NCBI GenBank assembly: GCA_030141585.1
Contig: JAQIFP010000058.1
Span: 1 to 35,428, forward strand
Length of the DNA: 35,428 bases
Direction of reading: 5' to 3'
Source of the DNA: Ophryocystis elektroscirrha
Taxonomy: Eukaryota; Apicomplexa; Conoidasida; Neogregarinorida; Ophryocystidae
Positions 19,628 through 35,199 of the stretch are shown here, piece by piece. The notes beneath the pieces were generated by a model. It was not told the origin of the DNA, ran no database searches, and worked only from the letters and a program-made list of their open reading frames with translations. Position 1 is the stretch's first letter, and every line of letters begins with the position of its first letter. The translations under genes were made by a program, and so were the position numbers.

Positions 19628-20160
19628 ATGGCAGAAGATCTCAAACTAAATCCACCTCTTCAACGGCAAAACGCTTACGGAAAATCCTTTATACGGAAGC
19701 TACAAGTTATGCAGCAAATTCCGATATGTATAAACTCTATGTACTCAATACATCCTACCCTAGTCAACCTCATGTTTTCTTAAACGAAATGAAGTTAAAA
19801 TTTTTTGAATTGGGTCGATCGAAATTATCTCGACGGAGTTTGCTTTTGCTTCATTCCTCTTTTTATTGGTTTCAATTTTTGAACATGTTCTATGAAAGTC
19901 CTGTAACTTTTGACGGTGTAGTTGTGGATGCTTATTTTCTCCTAGCCTGCCTATTAGTTTACTTATTTGTTATAATTCCTGTTCTATCATTACAGCTTTC
20001 TTTATCACAGTACTTTAAGGGGTCATATGTGGTATGATACCATTGTATATATACACAAGTTTACAAACTAATAATGTATCTATAGTTAATTTGATTCATG
20101 TTTAACTTTTATAATTTAATTAGGAAACTATACAAATAAACTAAAACCACTATATAAATG

Positions 20161-20202
<42 letters not shown>

Positions 20203-20486
20203 ACATATATACATACATATATATACAAACATACATATATACATATATACATTCATATATACATATATATATACATAGTTAAATACATGTATACATACAT
20301 GTATACATACATATATACATACATATATACATACATATATACATACATATATACATACATATATACATACATATATACATACATATATACATATGTAGAT
20401 ACATACATACATATATACATATATACATATATACATATATACATATATACATATATACATAGATACATATATACATATATACATAT

Positions 20487-20517
<31 letters not shown>

Positions 20518-21510
20518 CATATATATATGTATATATGTATATACATATATAGATAAATTACATACATACGCATATATATATAATATAATAAATATACTAT
20601 TAAATAAAATTATATACACTAGTTATAGCGCAGATATCCATACATTAAAAAATCAAATATGCACAATTGCTCAGAAAATATATACTGCCGTAAATACACT
20701 TTTTATTGGATTTAATGTTTTCCACTTGGGAGAAAATTTGATGAGATCTTGTGAATTAATTCGAACCACTGCTATGACGATTGCATATGCAATAAAAGAA
20801 CTAAAAATTTATTTGTATAAAATGATGTTCTTAAACCCCGTCACTGCTTGTACGAGATACATTGAAAATCCTTACTACTGTACCTTGGACGTCGATTGTA
20901 TACAAAATATGAAGTTATATAACTGCGACGTAAATAAAGTACGATTTAAATATGCATTTATTAAATATAGTAATTATAGATATGCTTTTACATATATGAG
21001 GAAATATGTGTATAATATAATAAATATATATATATACAATTAAATATATATTTGTTTGATTACTGCATAAAATATTTTATAATAAAAATAATACTATACA
21101 GTTATAAAATAATTATTTAATATAAACTATAACACTACAGTAAATAATTAATTATATAATTTAATTAATTTTTTATTTTCAATGTTAAGATGCTATCAAA
21201 CTGGAAAACAATTAAGCTCCCGTTTATGTCTGTATACTTACATTACCCATTGTTTATCTGTTTCTCATTAATATTAGCTTTGACTTATCTATATCACATA
21301 TGTTCTAACCGAACCAAGCGGGAAAGTAAGTATCATCATAAAATAAACCATTCTTAGTCAGTTTACGCGCAACTTATGGGGCATATGCAATTTTTTTTTT
21401 TATTAGCTGCAGTATATTTTTAGCTCCTGGTAGTCAATTAGGCGTTCAACATTTAACAAGTATGTCTATTTCATATACGAAGTTAAATTAATTTGTAATT
21501 ATATATAAGA

Positions 21511-21542
<32 letters not shown>

Positions 21543-24469
21543 TAAAAAATATATATTCAAAAGTTTATTTATATATATATATATATATATAATTAATTTA
21601 ACTAGCATAAATTTTTGTAGTTTATTAAATTATTTGCTTACATGTAGAGCACTCAAATGTTTTTAAATGCTATACTGTATAATTAACATAAACTATGTTT
21701 AGAATTCAAATCTCATGAACAAATCTTCAAGTCATCTTTTTGGTTTTCTGTATGTAATTATATCCTTCGAGTGGCTCCTTTACACCATAACGCTACTATT
21801 TTATTTATTTCTAATGACTCGTAAGTTTTACCATACTATTTATGTTTTTATAGATTAAAACTTCCCGTCGTTTTTTTGTCTAAATGGTTTGGCTGTGTTT
21901 CTTTTGCCGGAATTTTTTTTACTATAGCTTTACTTTATGGAATTGAGGGGTAAAAATCCAAAAAAAAAAAAAAAAAAAAGAGCAGACAAGTTAAAATCGT
22001 TAAACGTGAAGAAATTCAATGTTTCAGAATTAAAACAAATGAAAGAATATATACCTGAGTTTGAAGCACTTAGTTTGAAAATATACACCAAATTTGATGT
22101 ATACATAAGGCCATGGAAGCAAATAAATGACTGGAATCTAAATCGATCGTCAGATGGAATAATTGTAGCAATTTTCTTTTTTATTTGCCTTTTATCTGTC
22201 AGTTGTTTACTAATTGAACTACACAGTTTCAAGTACTTAGTTCTGGTCAAAGTAATTTTCTTTTTTTTTTTTAAATTTTTATACTTAGGAAATGAGTTTA
22301 TCATTTGGAATGAAGCCTGTCAAAAAAATTCATATTATTTTTGCTGCTACTTTGGCTGGATTTTACGTATTACTTCCCTCTATAGTATTCCATCCCTTTT
22401 TGGAAGCCTTATCAACAAGATTTCTAGTAATATATAGTTTTTCTATTAAATACAGTAAAATAAAGTGTGTAATATTATAATAGTATATCATGGTTGAGTA
22501 TATACGGAACTTATATAATTTTTTAGCTTATTTATACTATATGAATGCATGTAAAAATTAGTGCATATGGTGATATTAAATACAGCTATATAATAATATA
22601 ATATAATATAATATAATTATTCTTATCTGTATGATATTATGCGTTAATTTTAACAATTCATATAATAAATATATATATTCATTACTATTTAATATTTTAC
22701 TATAATTATAAATAATCGTAATAATGGAAAGTTGAAACTTAAATTAAAATATTTCTTACCAGTACAACTTGTTAACAGCAGCTCTATTCACCAATATCTT
22801 CAAATTGCCTACAATATTTTTTTTGGCAACTGTAGTATGTTATAATATTTTTATAATTACTTTAATAGCTTGTAATTGGACTTTCATCAACAAGGGAGCA
22901 GAATGCGTTATGGCTAACAAGTAAGGTTTTTTAATTTTCAACTTTGCTTCAGTATCTCATAGTTTATACAGTGTCTGTATATATACTTCATACACAACAT
23001 TTCTTTACACAAGGACACATCTTACGTCTTTTTCTTACGGCATTATCAACGTATTACAACTATTTTTCTTTTTATTATTAATACCATGTATATGCGCTAT
23101 TTTCGGCAATCAGTCTTACACAGTAATGTTAATCAAACACCTAGTATATTATTAGACAAATGTCAAGAGTGTAATCATTGGAGATGTAGAGTATGCTCGC
23201 CATTTTATAAATTTAAAACTTTCAGGTAAATTATACATCAAAATTTTTCACATCTTTTAATATAAAGTGACTTGTACATATATAAAAAAATATGTCTAAT
23301 TAATTTAATCTCTATACAAAAATATTGTATAACTTATTATTCAATTATAAAAAGTTTTATAAATTATTTAGTATGCTATATACATATCTATAATGCTTTT
23401 TAATATTTGTTATTTTATCTAAAATATGTATATATATATATTCAAAAATAAAGGTTTTTGCTCTTTACAATATATATTAGTAATGTTATATATTATCTAT
23501 ATAGCTATTTTAAACTAATTAATATACATTAAAAACTATAAACTATGTACACTAATAAAAAATTACTTAGTAATCATAAATTGTTTTTTTATCTTACAGT
23601 TTATTAAATCATTTTATTAAAAGTAATATAATTACCTTTTTATAGAGATTTTACGAAAAAAATACTCTCGTAACTCAATGAAGTTTTCTGAATTAAGTTT
23701 AATATGGTCAATATGTATAAAGTTTTTTGTCCCCTGGTTCATCATTATCAATTATTTATGTCCAACAGAAAGCTTTATGACAAAAGTCCCTGATATTCCA
23801 ATAATTACCCTTTATACAAAGCTGTTCTGTATGTATCAATAATTCTTGTTTTAATTTATTAGGCTATGTTTGTTTTATCACAATGGTTATTCTTGCTCTT
23901 ATTTTCACCTTCACTCCTTCCGTAAGTAATAAATGTAATTATAATTTAGACAAAATAATTACACCTCAATGAAAAATATATGCTGTATAATTAAATATTA
24001 TGACAGATAAATACAATAAAGTATACCTTACTTGATTAAGTTTAAAAACAGTTATTAATTTATTTTATATGATTTATGCTTTATAAGCAGTAGACGTTTT
24101 TGATGTATATAGCAACATTTTACTGCATTACTTTTATTATATAAGCTTTTGTATAAACCTTTTTTTTTTTTTTTAATTTATTGTCTTTATTCTTTTTTAT
24201 AAGATATGCACTACCAAAGCAAATAATTACATTAATAATAATAATATATTAATAATTATATAAATAGTTCGTGATAATATCGCATACATTATTTTGAATA
24301 GATAAGAAGAAACGTAGCTCAATATCGTAAAAGTCCAATGAATACAAGAACCCTTAAATTTGACGATTATGACTTTTCGCCTTTCCACAACAATCATATT
24401 GGTTACTTTGAAGATTTCAAAGACCCAGATGAAGTTTGGGCTAAAAGTCTTATGACTGTTCCTTCGTAA
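19628..24469 (+). CDS. SNF-like (sodium:neurotransmitter symporter family) multi-span transporter
   Basis: Proposed start ATG 19628 ([12 protein letters not shown]), stop TAA 24467-24469. Exons that join in phase include 19628-19740/19764-20022, the exon ending 21949 joined to 21981 onward, 23053(approx.)-23122/23156-23225/23646-23828/23863-23921/24302-24469. Other exons (about 20631-20929, 21191-21330, 21700-21830, 22290-22430, 22766-22831, 22869-22920) have correct composition, but some junctions are unresolved. About 11-13 hydrophobic spans are encoded. Two match SNF helices: the span ending [18 protein letters not shown] (family TM2, ending in GQ) and FFLATLVIGLSS (family TM8). TM1 lacks the conserved GNxWRFP sodium/substrate motif. 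The C-terminal tail is acidic and ends KSLMTVPS. Two genes joined by mistake cannot be excluded near 21044-21190. Likely a plasma-membrane solute carrier; substrate unknown. Confidence 0.6.
20160..20545. repeat. CATACATATATA 12-bp minisatellite in a transporter intron
   Basis: A (TA)n block at 20164-20195 leads into an array of the 12-bp unit CATACATATATA and a shorter ACATAT variant. Because 12 is divisible by 3, several frames stay open on both strands and give Tyr/Ile/Cys/Met-rich pseudo-proteins. It lies inside the intron between about 20023 and 20630. Confidence 0.9.
21950..21980 (+). other. 31-nt poly(A) intron in the transporter gene
   Basis: GTAAAAATCC, then a run of 20 A, then G. 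Removing it joins ...GAG GG to A GCA GAC AAG in phase and continues a lysine-rich cytosolic loop. There is no pyrimidine tract and hardly any sequence other than donor, A-run and AG. Confidence 0.65.
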
Positions 24470-29779: not shown

Positions 29780-31132
29780 ATGGAAAAAGGAAAGAAGACA
29801 GATATCATTATGAATGAATCATACGGGCTTGTAGACCAAGACAATAAGATAAAACTAAGTTCTACAGAAAAGCCAAATAGAAATTTAAGTCGTTCATATC
29901 AAATGCTTGAAGAGGCTGGCTCAGATTTGATTCGATCTTGGTCTCAAAAAATCAATGAAAAAAAACAAAATCTTAATGTAAACGATGTGGAAGAAATTGA
30001 TGAGAAAAAAAAAAAAAAAAAAAAAGATATTTTTGATACTTCGATAAAACGTCGTCGTGAAATACATTTGCAGAGTGCCGATTTATTTGATAACTTTAGC
30101 CCACTGCAAAAACAAAGGCAGCTATGGAAGCCAACATTGCCTGATGTATTCACAATGTCTTCAAATGTCATATTAGAGCCTGTAGACGCTCCAGAACTTC
30201 CGCAAAAAGACGAAGCAGTTCTTAAAAGTCTTCACCCTCAAATATTTGGGCAGCCTTGTTTAATGGCACAATCAGATTCACGTAAGTAAAAAATTAATAC
30301 GCGTATAATGCATATAGGTTGAATTTACATAACTATATATATATATAGATATAAATTAATACATTTAATTCGTAATATATTAGAGTTACCTAATTCAATG
30401 ACTATTTCGAAGCCTTATAAAATTGGAATAATACTATCTGGAGGCCCAGCTCCTGGTGGACATAACGTTATAGCAGGTTTATATGATTACATCAAACAAG
30501 CTCATTCGAATAGTCAAGTTTTTGGTTTTATGGGTGGTTTGGATGGAATTTTGCACGGGAATTATCGAGTTATAACTGATGATTTTATGAACCGGTTCAG
30601 GAATCAAGGTGGATTTGATATGCTATGGTCAGGAAGAGGACGCATATCCGGTTCTTCGGACATGATATTAGCAGCAAATGTATGTAAAGATTTAAACTTA
30701 GATGGATTAGTAATTGTTGGAGGAGACGGTACTCTTTCCAACGCAGCACTATTAGCTGAATTCTTTGCTAAACATATGCCCCAGTGCAAAGTTATTGGTG
30801 TACCAAAAACCATAGACGGAGATTTAAGAAACGCATGGGTAGAAATATCATTTGGTTTTGATACAGCTGCAAAAACTTATTCAGAACTTATTGGTAATTT
30901 ATGTACTGATATTACAACAAATCAAGTAAGAAAAAAAAAAAAAAAAAAAAAAATTAGTTTTTATACCATTTTGTTCGTGTTATGGGTAGAAGTGCTTCGC
31001 ATTTGGTAGCTGAATGCGCTTTCCAATCAAGGCCAAATATAGTCCTGATAGGAGAGGAAATAGAAAGGGATAAAACAACTTTGCCAAAAATTATAGATCA
31101 CATTTGCAATACAATTTTAGAAAGAAAAGAAA

Positions 31133-31164
<32 letters not shown>

Positions 31165-34100
31165 GGGTTCCAAATTTGGGATCATTTTGATTCCTGAAGG
31201 TTTGATCGAATTTATACCGGATATTAAATTATTAAACACGGAATTAAACGCAATTTTAGCGGAAATTAACGTTAGTATATATTCAAATTATGTTTGTATA
31301 TAGATTAATGAAAATGATGACATAAAGTCTTTAGTATTAGAAAAATTGAAGCCCGAAGCTCGAAAAGCTTGGGACTTTTTACCACAATTGATTCATGATC
31401 AATTATTGATGGACAGAGAAGCTACAGGATATATACAAGTCGCTAAAATTGCAACGGAAAGATTGCTGAAGTATTTAGTCATTGTTGAGTTACAAAAACG
31501 AAAAAAAATTTTTGATGATTTGATGATAATGACGCATTATTTCGGCTATGAAGGTCGCTGCGCTATGCCTTCAAATTTTGACGCTAATTATTGCTATTGT
31601 TTAGGATACAATGCTGGTGTCTTAATAGCGCATAATAAAACTGGATATGTTAGTGTAATCAGAAGACTCGAGCAGCATCCAACTCTTTGGGCTCCAGGAG
31701 CGGTTCCAATAACGCGTATGATGGAAATTAAAAAAACAGCAAACAATATCGAGTTTCCTGCTGTTTCTCGTCAGTTGTTTGATTTGAATGGAGCCTTATT
31801 TAAGGTCTTATCTGAAGTAATAGACACATTTACATATTATTCATATCTTAGGTACGAAACAAATGGCGTTTAGAGGAATACTACCGTTGCCCTGGGCCAA
31901 TACAATTTGAAGGACCTGTTGCAAATATTGCAAATTACTCAATAACGATTCCCAAAGAGGTAATTCAATGTTATTTTGTACTTTTAATAGACGGATTTGC
32001 TATCTGGAGACATAGATCGTATTGTTGGTTTTGGAAGAGCCGTTGCCCCTAAAAGACCTGGTGCTCTTAGTCTGCTTCAGAAACAACGTCTTCAACACAT
32101 GTAATATATTTATATATATATACAAATATAGATATTTGCACATACATAGAAATATATATTAATATTTACATATAGTTGTGCATACATATATATATATATA
32201 TATACAAATATAGATATTTGCACATACATATAAATATATATTAATATTTACATATAATTGTGCATACATATATATTTATGTATATAAATATAGATATTTC
32301 CACATACATATAAATATATATTAATATTTACATATAATTGTGCATACATATATATTTATGTATATAGATATGTATGAATAATGATATATATATATATTAA
32401 TATACATTAGTTAATTATTTCCTAACAATTAATTTATCATGAATAATTTTATATGCTATATATATATATATATATATATTATTAATATTATATATTTAAT
32501 AATATGTAACATTGTATATAATTATATATACTTTTGTATCTCTGAGCGATATGCATATATATGTTTAGCTCCCTTTACGAGTAAAATTTATTGCATAAAT
32601 CAAATTTATTCATTTTTTGTATAGTTTAATAAATTATAGATAAATTAAACATAATATAATATATTAATGATCAAATAAATGCCTCTCTTTTTTTTAGTCC
32701 TGAAATACCCGCCATTTGTCGAGATCCTTATGCTCGAGCAGTTTCTGGCCCGGAATATTTCCCAAGGGACCCTTTCACACAAAGGCAAATACTAATACAC
32801 TATCCATACAGTTGCAATACAAATAAATTTTATCTTTATGAAGTGATGAGCGATCGTTCAATTGAACCTGTTAGCTCCAAGTTAAAGATTGGAATAGTGT
32901 ATTTATCGAGGCAGGCTCCAGGTGTTCAAAATGTATTGTGGGGAATTATGGAGCGCCTCAAATTGGTACAGGGCTCATGTATCGGATTTTATGGCACAGA
33001 TGGTTTGTGTAATGGAAAATATATAACAGTTAATGATTCGGTAATAAAATTTGATATACAAATACATAAATTCGTATTTACAGATATAAATAAATTACTT
33101 ATATATATATATATATATATACAAATATATATATATATATATATATACAAATATGGAAATTTTCACATATAAATATATATCAATAATAACATATTGATAT
33201 GCATACATATATATATATATACAAATATAGACTTTGGCACATATATATATATATATATATATGTATAAGTATAAATGTATATATGTATGCATATACACGA
33301 AGGTTTGAAACGTACTATATTTATATTTCAATTAATATCAAATTTTATAAATAATATATTAATACTTACTATTGCAGCTATATTGAATATATACTCAGTT
33401 ACTGTTATAAACGACTATTAGACTTAGACTGAATTTATTTTTGTTAGGATTTAGAGTTATATTTAAATCAAGGCGGTTTAGAGCTGTTGGGGCGAGGAGC
33501 GGTTCACGGACTTCTTAATGAAGAAAGTCGAGAAAAAGCTCGAAAAACGTGTGTTGAACTTGAATTGGATGGACTTATATTAGTGGGCTCAAGTTTAGCC
33601 ATGACTGAAGCAGCTTTGACGGCGGAATATTTTTTGGCAAAGAATTGCCGAACTTCAATAATAGGGGTTCCAGCGACTGGTTCAAATAACTTAACGCACG
33701 AGCTTATAGAGACCAGTATAGGATTTGATACGTCAAGTAAAGTGTGTATATATTTAAATTAGCATCACTCGATTTTTTTAGGTTTATGCGTCATTAATAG
33801 GCAACGTGTTAACCGATGCGGCATCTATGCCAAAATATTGGCACTTTGTTCGTTTGATGGGTCGTCAGCCTTCAAATGAAGTGCTCGAATGCGCTTTACA
33901 AACCCACCCCAATGTTGTTATTATTGCAGAAGAATACGGAGCAGCAAACAAATCCTTAGGAGACGTCGTAAAAGACATAGCGGATGTTGTTTGTAATCGA
34001 GCGGACATGGGAAAAAATTTTGGGTCTGTTTTGATTCCAGACAGTTTATTTGTTCATTTGCCTAATATGAAATCTCTGCTTAACGAACTCTCCAAACTTG

Positions 34101-34292
34101 TACATAGAGCAACTAAAGCGAACGCCTTAGACAAGTTACAGGTACCTATTCTTTGATAATTATATTCACCTTAAAGATACACGTCCACAATGATAGACAC
34201 ACTAATTACTTTTATTACACATATTTATTCAAACAATCATTATATAATAGTTTTGTATAAATATATATGTACATATATAAAAAAATATACTC

Positions 34293-34335
<43 letters not shown>

Positions 34336-35144
34336 ACAAAATATACATATATATGTATATTTATATGTAGGAATGTATATATCTGTACAAATATATGTAT
34401 ATATATATATGTTAAAAAGTATAATTTTGATATACATATATATATTTATATATGTACATGTATAAGTTTTACATATATATGTATATATATATGTATATAC
34501 ATATATATATATATGTCAAAAAAAATATACAGATATATATATTTTTATGTAAAGGATGTATATATATATACATTTAGATAGTATATACATGTATAATTTT
34601 TTACAGTGCAACCAAAAAGTTTTTTTTAACTTTAGATAATAAATACATATTAAAATTTATATATTTAAAGTTAGTGTATAATAATATAATTTACGAATAA
34701 TTATTTTTTTTTTTTTTTAGAACGAATTGGACCGAGTAGATGAGATTGATTCGACAGATCAAAACACATGGGTATCAAAAATCACTCCATGGTCTTTAGC
34801 GTTATTCAAATCTCTGCCTCAATTTATTCGTAAAGAGTTGACTCAGACTAATTCTGGCGAGGTAATGTTGAGGAATGTGTTTGCAATTCTGTAGTAATTT
34901 TTTTCTAGTTAATAATAAAATTTATTATTTAATTTATAAATATTTGAGGATTATTTGCACAGATGGGATTCACTATGATAGAGACTGAAGTTTTATTAAG
35001 TCAAATGGTCAATGACGAGCTAAAATTACGAAAAAAAGCTGGACTTTTTAAAGGAAAATTTAACCCTGTATCGCATTTCTTTGGATATCAAGGACGTTCT
35101 TCCATGCCATCAAGATTTGACGCTCAGCTTGCATTTGCCTACGG
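29780..35144 (+). CDS. PFK: Double-domain 6-phosphofructokinase (3' end beyond window)
   Basis: Phosphorylates fructose 6-phosphate at C1 in glycolysis. Exons: 29780-30281, 30384-30925, 30958-31134, 31166-31270, 31304-31816, 31852-31959, 31991-32100, 32698-33040, 33448-33741, 33782-34141, 34721-34861 and 34963-35144, all GT-AG and in phase; 1125 residues are visible before the last donor at 35145. The first ATG gives a charged N-terminal extension of about 200 residues with a seven-lysine run. Domain 1 has [17 protein letters not shown] at about 280, PKTIDGDL at about 308, [15 protein letters not shown] at about 360 and GYEGR. Domain 2 (from about 747) repeats the fold but has VGSSL and PATGSNN where the nucleotide and catalytic motifs belong, so it is probably regulatory. 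This fused, long-type layout is characteristic of apicomplexan PFK. GGDG suggests ATP use. Short introns (31-40 nt, two nearly pure poly(A)) alternate with satellite-filled ones. Confidence 0.95.
30926..30957 (+). other. 32-nt poly(A) intron in PFK
   Basis: GTAAG, then about 23 A, then TTAG. Its removal joins ...ACAAATCAA to TTTTTATACCATTTTG in phase and restores the family sequence leading into [13 protein letters not shown]. Confidence 0.9.
31135..31165 (+). other. 31-nt poly(A) intron in PFK
   Basis: GTAAAT, then 24 A, then G. Its removal joins ...GAAAAG to GGTTCCAAATTTGG in phase and restores the PFK block [14 protein letters not shown]. Confidence 0.92.
32118..32375. repeat. About 82-bp minisatellite (three copies) in PFK intron 7
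   Basis: Three near-identical units of 80-82 bp, each with AAATATAGATATTTGC (or TTCC) and TTGTGCATACATATAT, lie in the 597-nt intron 32101-32697. Copies 2 and 3 are closest to each other. Confidence 0.85.
33095..33270. repeat. Diverged copies of the same minisatellite in PFK intron 8
   Basis: The 407-nt intron 33041-33447 holds (TA)n plus units with ACAAATATGGAAATTTTCAC, a GATATGCATACATATAT part and ACAAATATAGACTTTGGC. They resemble the intron 7 unit but are more diverged. Confidence 0.65.
34255..34590. repeat. TA-rich satellite with diverged longer units in PFK intron 10
   Basis: Inside the 579-nt intron 34142-34720. (TA)n is mixed with repeated blocks of the form ATATATGTSAMAAAATATAC followed by a ...TTTATATGTA...GGATGTATATAT part, suggesting a degenerate longer unit distinct from that of introns 7 and 8. 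Confidence 0.65.
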
Positions 35145-35199
35145 GTAAGATATGTGTATAATATTTCTTTAATTATATAAAGATATATATTAATGAAAA

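Follow-up and report, generated by a model that had tools for sequence, protein, structure and literature searches.

The PFK gene and its adenine-filled introns

The stretch of Ophryocystis elektroscirrha DNA analysed here (referred to as the window; 35,428 nucleotides, corresponding to contig C72 and with a GC content of 26.9%) carries on its forward strand a two-domain PFK gene. A self-written predictor, trained on long open reading frames of the fetched sequence, places this gene, its predicted ends included, at positions 29780-35148 and assigns it six introns of at most 45 nt. Two of these consist almost entirely of adenine. Read directly from the sequence, poly(A) intron 1 (30926-30957, forward strand, 32 nt, phase 0) is GTAAG-A23-TTAG with its A23 tract at 30931-30953, and poly(A) intron 2 (31135-31165, forward strand, 31 nt, phase 0) is GTAAAT-A24-G with its A24 tract at 31141-31164. 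The exon between them (30958-31134, FLYHFVRVMGR...ILERKEK) is supported by both sequence and alignment. The other four are predicted as ordinary short introns of 33 nt (31271-31303), 35 nt (31817-31851), 31 nt (31960-31990) and 40 nt (33742-33781), all on the same strand. The positions and letters of the two poly(A) introns, first proposed from inspection of the DNA, agreed with the sequence when checked, and the accompanying statement that one of them holds no pyrimidine at all is wrong by a single T, located at position +6 of intron 2. A polypyrimidine tract is absent from both, as intron 1 has only TT as pyrimidines before its AG and intron 2 has nothing but A.

Several further features lie in or near this gene. 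An A21 run at 30005-30025 is coding and specifies seven lysines at the PFK N-terminus; it is preceded by GATGAG and not by GTA. A third candidate poly(A) intron of the window, GTAAAAATCC-A20-G (21950-21980, forward strand, 31 nt), was called by the predictor within a weak gene model. TA-rich low-complexity repeats are found at 20130-20620 and 32100-32540, the second within a predicted PFK intron. A second PFK gene is probably represented by two more matches elsewhere, on the minus strand of contig C34 (G000:C34:49720-52241; L001 and L003).

The lengths of the two poly(A) introns are 3n+2 and 3n+1, respectively, and each breaks the reading frame if kept. The spliced translation passes from TDITTNQ into FLYHFVRVMGRSASHL across the first junction and from ILERKEK into GSKFGIILIPEGL across the second, and both junctions are gap-free against P0001, a transcript product of Lankesteria metandrocarpae with 65% identity, which confirms the initial view that both must be removed to keep the PFK frame. 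P0003, like P0001, has no insert at either site, and P0010 shows none. P0002, another relative of 65% identity, stems from a 30.6-kb contig and is evidently unspliced: at the first site its translation reads TTGQ, then 35 foreign residues, then QVYHFVR, and at the second RKAK gives way to unrelated sequence. P0002 thus has introns at both sites, and the one at the first site looks pyrimidine-rich toward its 3' end, judging from residues alone. Since the two sites are common to P0002, they are old, and it is the content of the introns that is poly(A).

Two other origins of the tracts have to be weighed at this point. Many introns of this genome look alike, as would be expected after the recent insertion of a mobile element that bears poly(A) or creates introns, but such an origin is scarcely credible: both PFK sites are shared with P0002, and the introns compared have only the donor, the A's and the AG in common, their tails and flanks being different, unlike introners, which are near-identical copies. 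It is also very unlikely that the tracts are translated lysine codons with an A-run counted one or two letters too long or too short. Such runs easily suffer slippage errors and the gene does encode the lysine run at 30005-30025, but the last three letters of intron 1, TAG, form a stop codon when read in frame with the downstream exon, inserts are missing from P0001 and P0003 at both sites and from P0010, and A-runs are far commoner after GTA than in a backward-read control. Frame and homology together indicate that both A-tract sequences are introns, which would be excised from the PFK transcript, and the predictor placed both of them to the base.

Occurrence across the genome

Within the genome of 8,008,172 bases in 118 contigs, GTAAG followed by A15 has 22 matches, compared with 0 for the pattern read backward, and the more permissive GTANNN-A15 has 182 as opposed to 30 for its backward control; the corresponding numbers for GTANNN-T15 are 119 and 49. 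Among 100 listed GTANNN-A15 matches, contigs C1, C2 and C31 (365-410 kb) hold 1, 5 and 2, respectively, and contigs of 47-60 kb, for example C38 and C44, hold 7-8 each; masked stretches are a possible cause of the low counts on C1, C2 and C31. Homopolymers are error-prone, and the runs might have replaced other sequence during assembly or amplification. Such an artefact is highly improbable given that the arrangement recurs on many contigs (182 matches) with exact donors, and that the published Ophryocystis assembly, if this is the one, was built according to the genome paper from 250-bp paired Illumina reads, which are long enough to span the runs (PMC10210345).

Introns were predicted in 200 kb of C29, a contig stretch with 33.6 kb masked, in the window and in 3-kb loci around the GTAAG-A15 matches, and the tests of candidates add short pieces around most of those sites among the 100 listed for GTANNN-A15 that these regions did not already include. 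Outside the junctions compared with homologues, most introns are calls of the self-written predictor, which returned 273 flanked by coding signal on both sides. Short introns (26-42 nt, mode 31) account for 132 of these, and 128 exceed 60 nt and are less certain. With 32 and 31 nt, the PFK introns fall within the narrow short-intron class of this genome, set at 28-42 nt. Two of the 132 predicted short introns have no pyrimidine after the GT. Retention of the 27 short introns with A14 or longer would cause a frameshift or a stop in 24 cases, and three would keep the frame without a stop.

C29 and the window constitute a sample that was not chosen for A-runs. Its 84 predicted short introns include one with T15 or longer, eight with T11 or longer and 11 with A15 or longer, the last fraction not being a genome-wide share, because GTANNN-A15 is denser on C29 than in the genome as a whole (12 matches in 200 kb versus 182 in 8.0 Mb). 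As 11 of the 84 sampled short introns hold such a tract and the PFK gene has six short introns, the presence of two in one gene is unremarkable here. Three poly(A) introns per gene are found in importin alpha (L016) and at 41.7-43.3 kb and 110-113 kb of C29, and weak within-gene clustering is seen in the sample (3 adjacent pairs versus 0.9 expected, p=0.048). Short introns with a T-run (T11-T20), or with an A-run followed by a T-run, are of the same total length and occur in L006, L007, L008, L016, L024 and C29.

From 34 listed poly(A) (A14+) junctions, 11 were picked for conserved genes and aligned with homologues, and nine proved gap-free: two in PFK, three in importin alpha, and one each in the RFC small subunit, Nop58, Rad50 and eIF3b. 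The third importin alpha junction lies two residues short of the alignment end and is gap-free, and all three are gap-free against P0124 and P0125 as well, relatives in which no read-through intron was seen. At the second eIF3b junction, the alignment opens a gap four residues further on, and the ABCF junction falls outside the aligned part of its homologue. The Rad50 intron, GTAAG-A17-G-A10-G, is free of pyrimidines after the GT. An A16 run after GTAAG in the gene of SF1, the branch-point-binding protein (G000:C71:59422-59632, L020), was considered as a minimal poly(A) intron and dropped, because it belongs to an intron of about 210 nt with an ordinary T-rich 3' end, past which the protein sequence continues.

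The location of the runs is strongly biased. With sequence classes that rest on the predictor, all introns being counted without an exon-score filter and the strand of intergenic sequence being arbitrary, C29 and the window contain 14 sense-A runs of at least 15 in 5,356 bases of short introns, 3 in 59,563 bases of long introns, 4 in 102,392 bases of exons and 2 in 34,551 bases of intergenic sequence; for sense-T runs of at least 15 the respective numbers are 2, 7, 0 and 9. Sense-A runs are about 49 times denser (odds ratio 49) in short introns than in long introns and intergenic sequence taken together (14 in 5,356 bases versus 5 in 94,114). The preference for A over T (14 versus 2 in short introns, 5 versus 16 in long introns plus intergenic sequence, p=2e-4), as well as the fact that A-runs adjoin the donor directly, would fit an active signal, whereby a protein that binds poly(A) or A-rich sequence, for example a nuclear poly(A)-binding one, acts at the donor and replaces U2AF on the pyrimidine tract. 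However, 73 of the 84 sampled short introns lack an A15 and poly(T) introns of equal length exist, so the A-tract is not generally needed, and an active role of this kind is unlikely.

Length, branch site and 3' end

Poly(A) short introns of C29 and the window have a mean length of 34.1 nt (sd 3.0, n=11), and the other short introns one of 33.8 nt (sd 2.7, n=73). To avoid circularity, 108 GTANNN-A15 candidates (106 distinct runs) were scored by coding signal alone, with no prior on length or splice sites. Coding support on both sides was found for 46, of which 36 are 28-35 nt long, 39 are up to 45 nt and seven are longer; the lack of support in the other 62 is partly explained by flanks of just 60-110 nt for many of them. 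With the seven introns over 45 nt dropped (n=39), the length of the A-run correlates negatively with that of the rest of the intron (rho -0.76) and hardly with total length (rho 0.14), and the first of these relations recurs in C29 and the window, where introns were not picked for A-runs (rho -0.75, n=11).

A related signal is visible without the coding score. An AG ends 28-36 nt past the GT in 79 of the 106 runs compared with 13 of 33 control A-runs (p=3e-4), and the corresponding counts at 40-48 nt are 38 of 106 and 13 of 33; 34 runs have a G directly behind them, which is scored as an AG regardless of its use. How far the first AG lies from the run is independent of run length (rho -0.04, n=102; for control runs, rho -0.30, n=31, p=0.10), which means that the trade-off between run and remainder appears only once the coding signal picks the acceptor.

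This AT-rich genome has many slippage tracts, and slippage together with small deletions might yield runs of about 20 A's and introns of about 33 nt by mutation alone, with neither selection on length nor a ruler. This seems improbable, since short introns without a homopolymer are equally long, and since runs in the supported introns (16-27) are longer than control runs (15-23, mostly 15-17) and total length is still narrow. The initial reading had expected homopolymer introns to be highly unstable in length; the narrow total length suggests that any such instability of the A-run is checked.

None of nine branch-like motifs tested in 90 plain short introns was clearly more frequent than in shuffled sequence. 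YTNAY occurs in 53 of the 90 (53.2 in shuffles). Of 27 introns of the poly(A) kind, one has YTNAY and none has CTAA, TAAC or an extension of either. No branch motif among those tested is thus shared, a result compatible with branch sites that are degenerate, which is the case in many eukaryotes. Plain short introns have a T-rich 3' end (46-69% at -3 to -9) with no fixed A, and in those of at least 30 nt T makes up 60% and A 28% at position -6. In poly(A) introns pyrimidine tracts are short or absent. Each of the 132 predicted short introns, the poly(T) ones included, has an A at -9 to -19, so a branch A without a motif is plausible; among T-run introns, where the result is informative but weak, this holds for 15 of 15, as against 12.5 in shuffles (p=0.048, for a window chosen post hoc).

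Domain searches of the genome point to a spliceosome, with Prp8 PROCN (1.4e-230) and SF1-HH (2.2e-24) both encoded, and matches to a U2AF-like UHM fall below the curated family cut-off. A search with the Rfam U2 model gave no match to U2 snRNA here, nor in any of 14 control genomes, and a conserved 24-mer of U2 has no match in the genome with up to three mismatches, negatives that carry little weight. SPF45 was not recognised in a six-frame search, in which genes are split at introns: the single G-patch match is followed by a lysine-rich end and has no UHM beside it, so that a role for SPF45 is not supported.

The original prediction held that recognition relies on donor, AG and length. It is supported insofar as nothing else is visibly shared, and it can be refined in two respects: the introns form a genome-wide class, and an A lies at -9 to -19 in each of the predicted short introns. 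As a whole, the interpretation first put forward is partly supported.

A proposed minimal intron and its known counterparts

The sequence evidence makes it probable that the short introns are spliceosomal and owe their definition to GTA, AG, some A and a restricted length, and that the A-tracts are filler made by slippage. They would be GT-AG introns at old positions, the interiors of which have turned into A homopolymers. Recognition would take place across the intron and would involve a GTA(A) donor, the AG, at least one A about 9-19 nt upstream of the AG and a total of about 30-36 nt, with the remaining interior unconstrained. Replication slippage would expand an A-run, or less often a T-run, until the allowed length is filled, and further growth or shrinkage would be selected against because the intron would leave its length window. 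Adenine may be preferred as filler, as it can fill the whole interior and abut both GTA and AG; a whole interior of A would keep the branch nucleophile, which one of T would not. A may dominate over T because a branch A is needed or because the tract itself is active, two possibilities that the present data do not separate.

A further-reading of the same pattern, put forward tentatively, is that the spliceosome of this parasite has no need of branch-site or pyrimidine-tract sequence in short introns, and would measure about 31 nt from GTA to AG and use any suitably placed A as nucleophile. If so, GT-A25-TAG would be a complete intron, and the hypermutable A-tracts would serve as natural length probes, the narrow spread of which reads out selection on intron length.

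It has long been asked how little sequence suffices to define an intron, and introns made of a donor, an A-tract and an AG, which several conserved housekeeping genes contain, lie near the lower bound of information. They form a natural length series from A16 to A27 with compensating ends, with which independence from a branch site and selection on intron length could be tested directly. They are also a warning that gene finders and repeat maskers may mis-annotate genes holding poly(A) introns.

Homopolymer runs, presumably made by slippage, are familiar as the A/T mononucleotide tracts of AT-rich genomes. Unlike those tracts, the sense-A runs described here cluster in a single class of introns, whose length limits them. 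Introns with an entire interior of poly(A) were not met in the literature searched, the scope of which mostly excluded subscription papers, and the main text of the Ophryocystis genome paper uses the word "intron" once only, for a mapping setting (PMC10210345). As far as these sources extend, tiny introns of near-fixed length and splicing without a proper pyrimidine tract are known already, and the poly(A)-filled variant was not found described.

A polypyrimidine tract is not universal among U2-type introns, as is stated in the work on human short introns that depend on SPF45/RBM17, which have a truncated tract and are spliced without U2AF (PMC8363638). Like the introns reported here, these are short and poor in pyrimidines, but the SPF45 model intron described there is 56 nt long and keeps its truncated tract (PMC8363638). 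In Stentor coeruleus, introns of 15-16 nt are reported in which the branch A is nearly always the 10th position (PMC9505925). They share the near-fixed length and the lack of a strong branch-site consensus, whereas they are half as long and the example sequence given is U-rich and not poly(A) (PMC9505925).

Another close comparison is offered by Porospora cf. gigantea, a gregarine with a genome of about 9 Mb, for which introns of 25-30 nt with a mode of 28 are reported to make up 71-72% of all introns (PMC9250747). Its genome has 54% GC, and the passages on its introns do not mention homopolymer interiors (PMC9250747). The A that is strongly conserved 6 nt before the 3' site in Porospora (PMC9250747) is not a feature of the introns described here, which have a mode of 31 and, in the plain ones of at least 30 nt, just 28% A at -6. 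Both, however, are compact gregarine genomes with a distinct class of tiny introns (PMC9250747).
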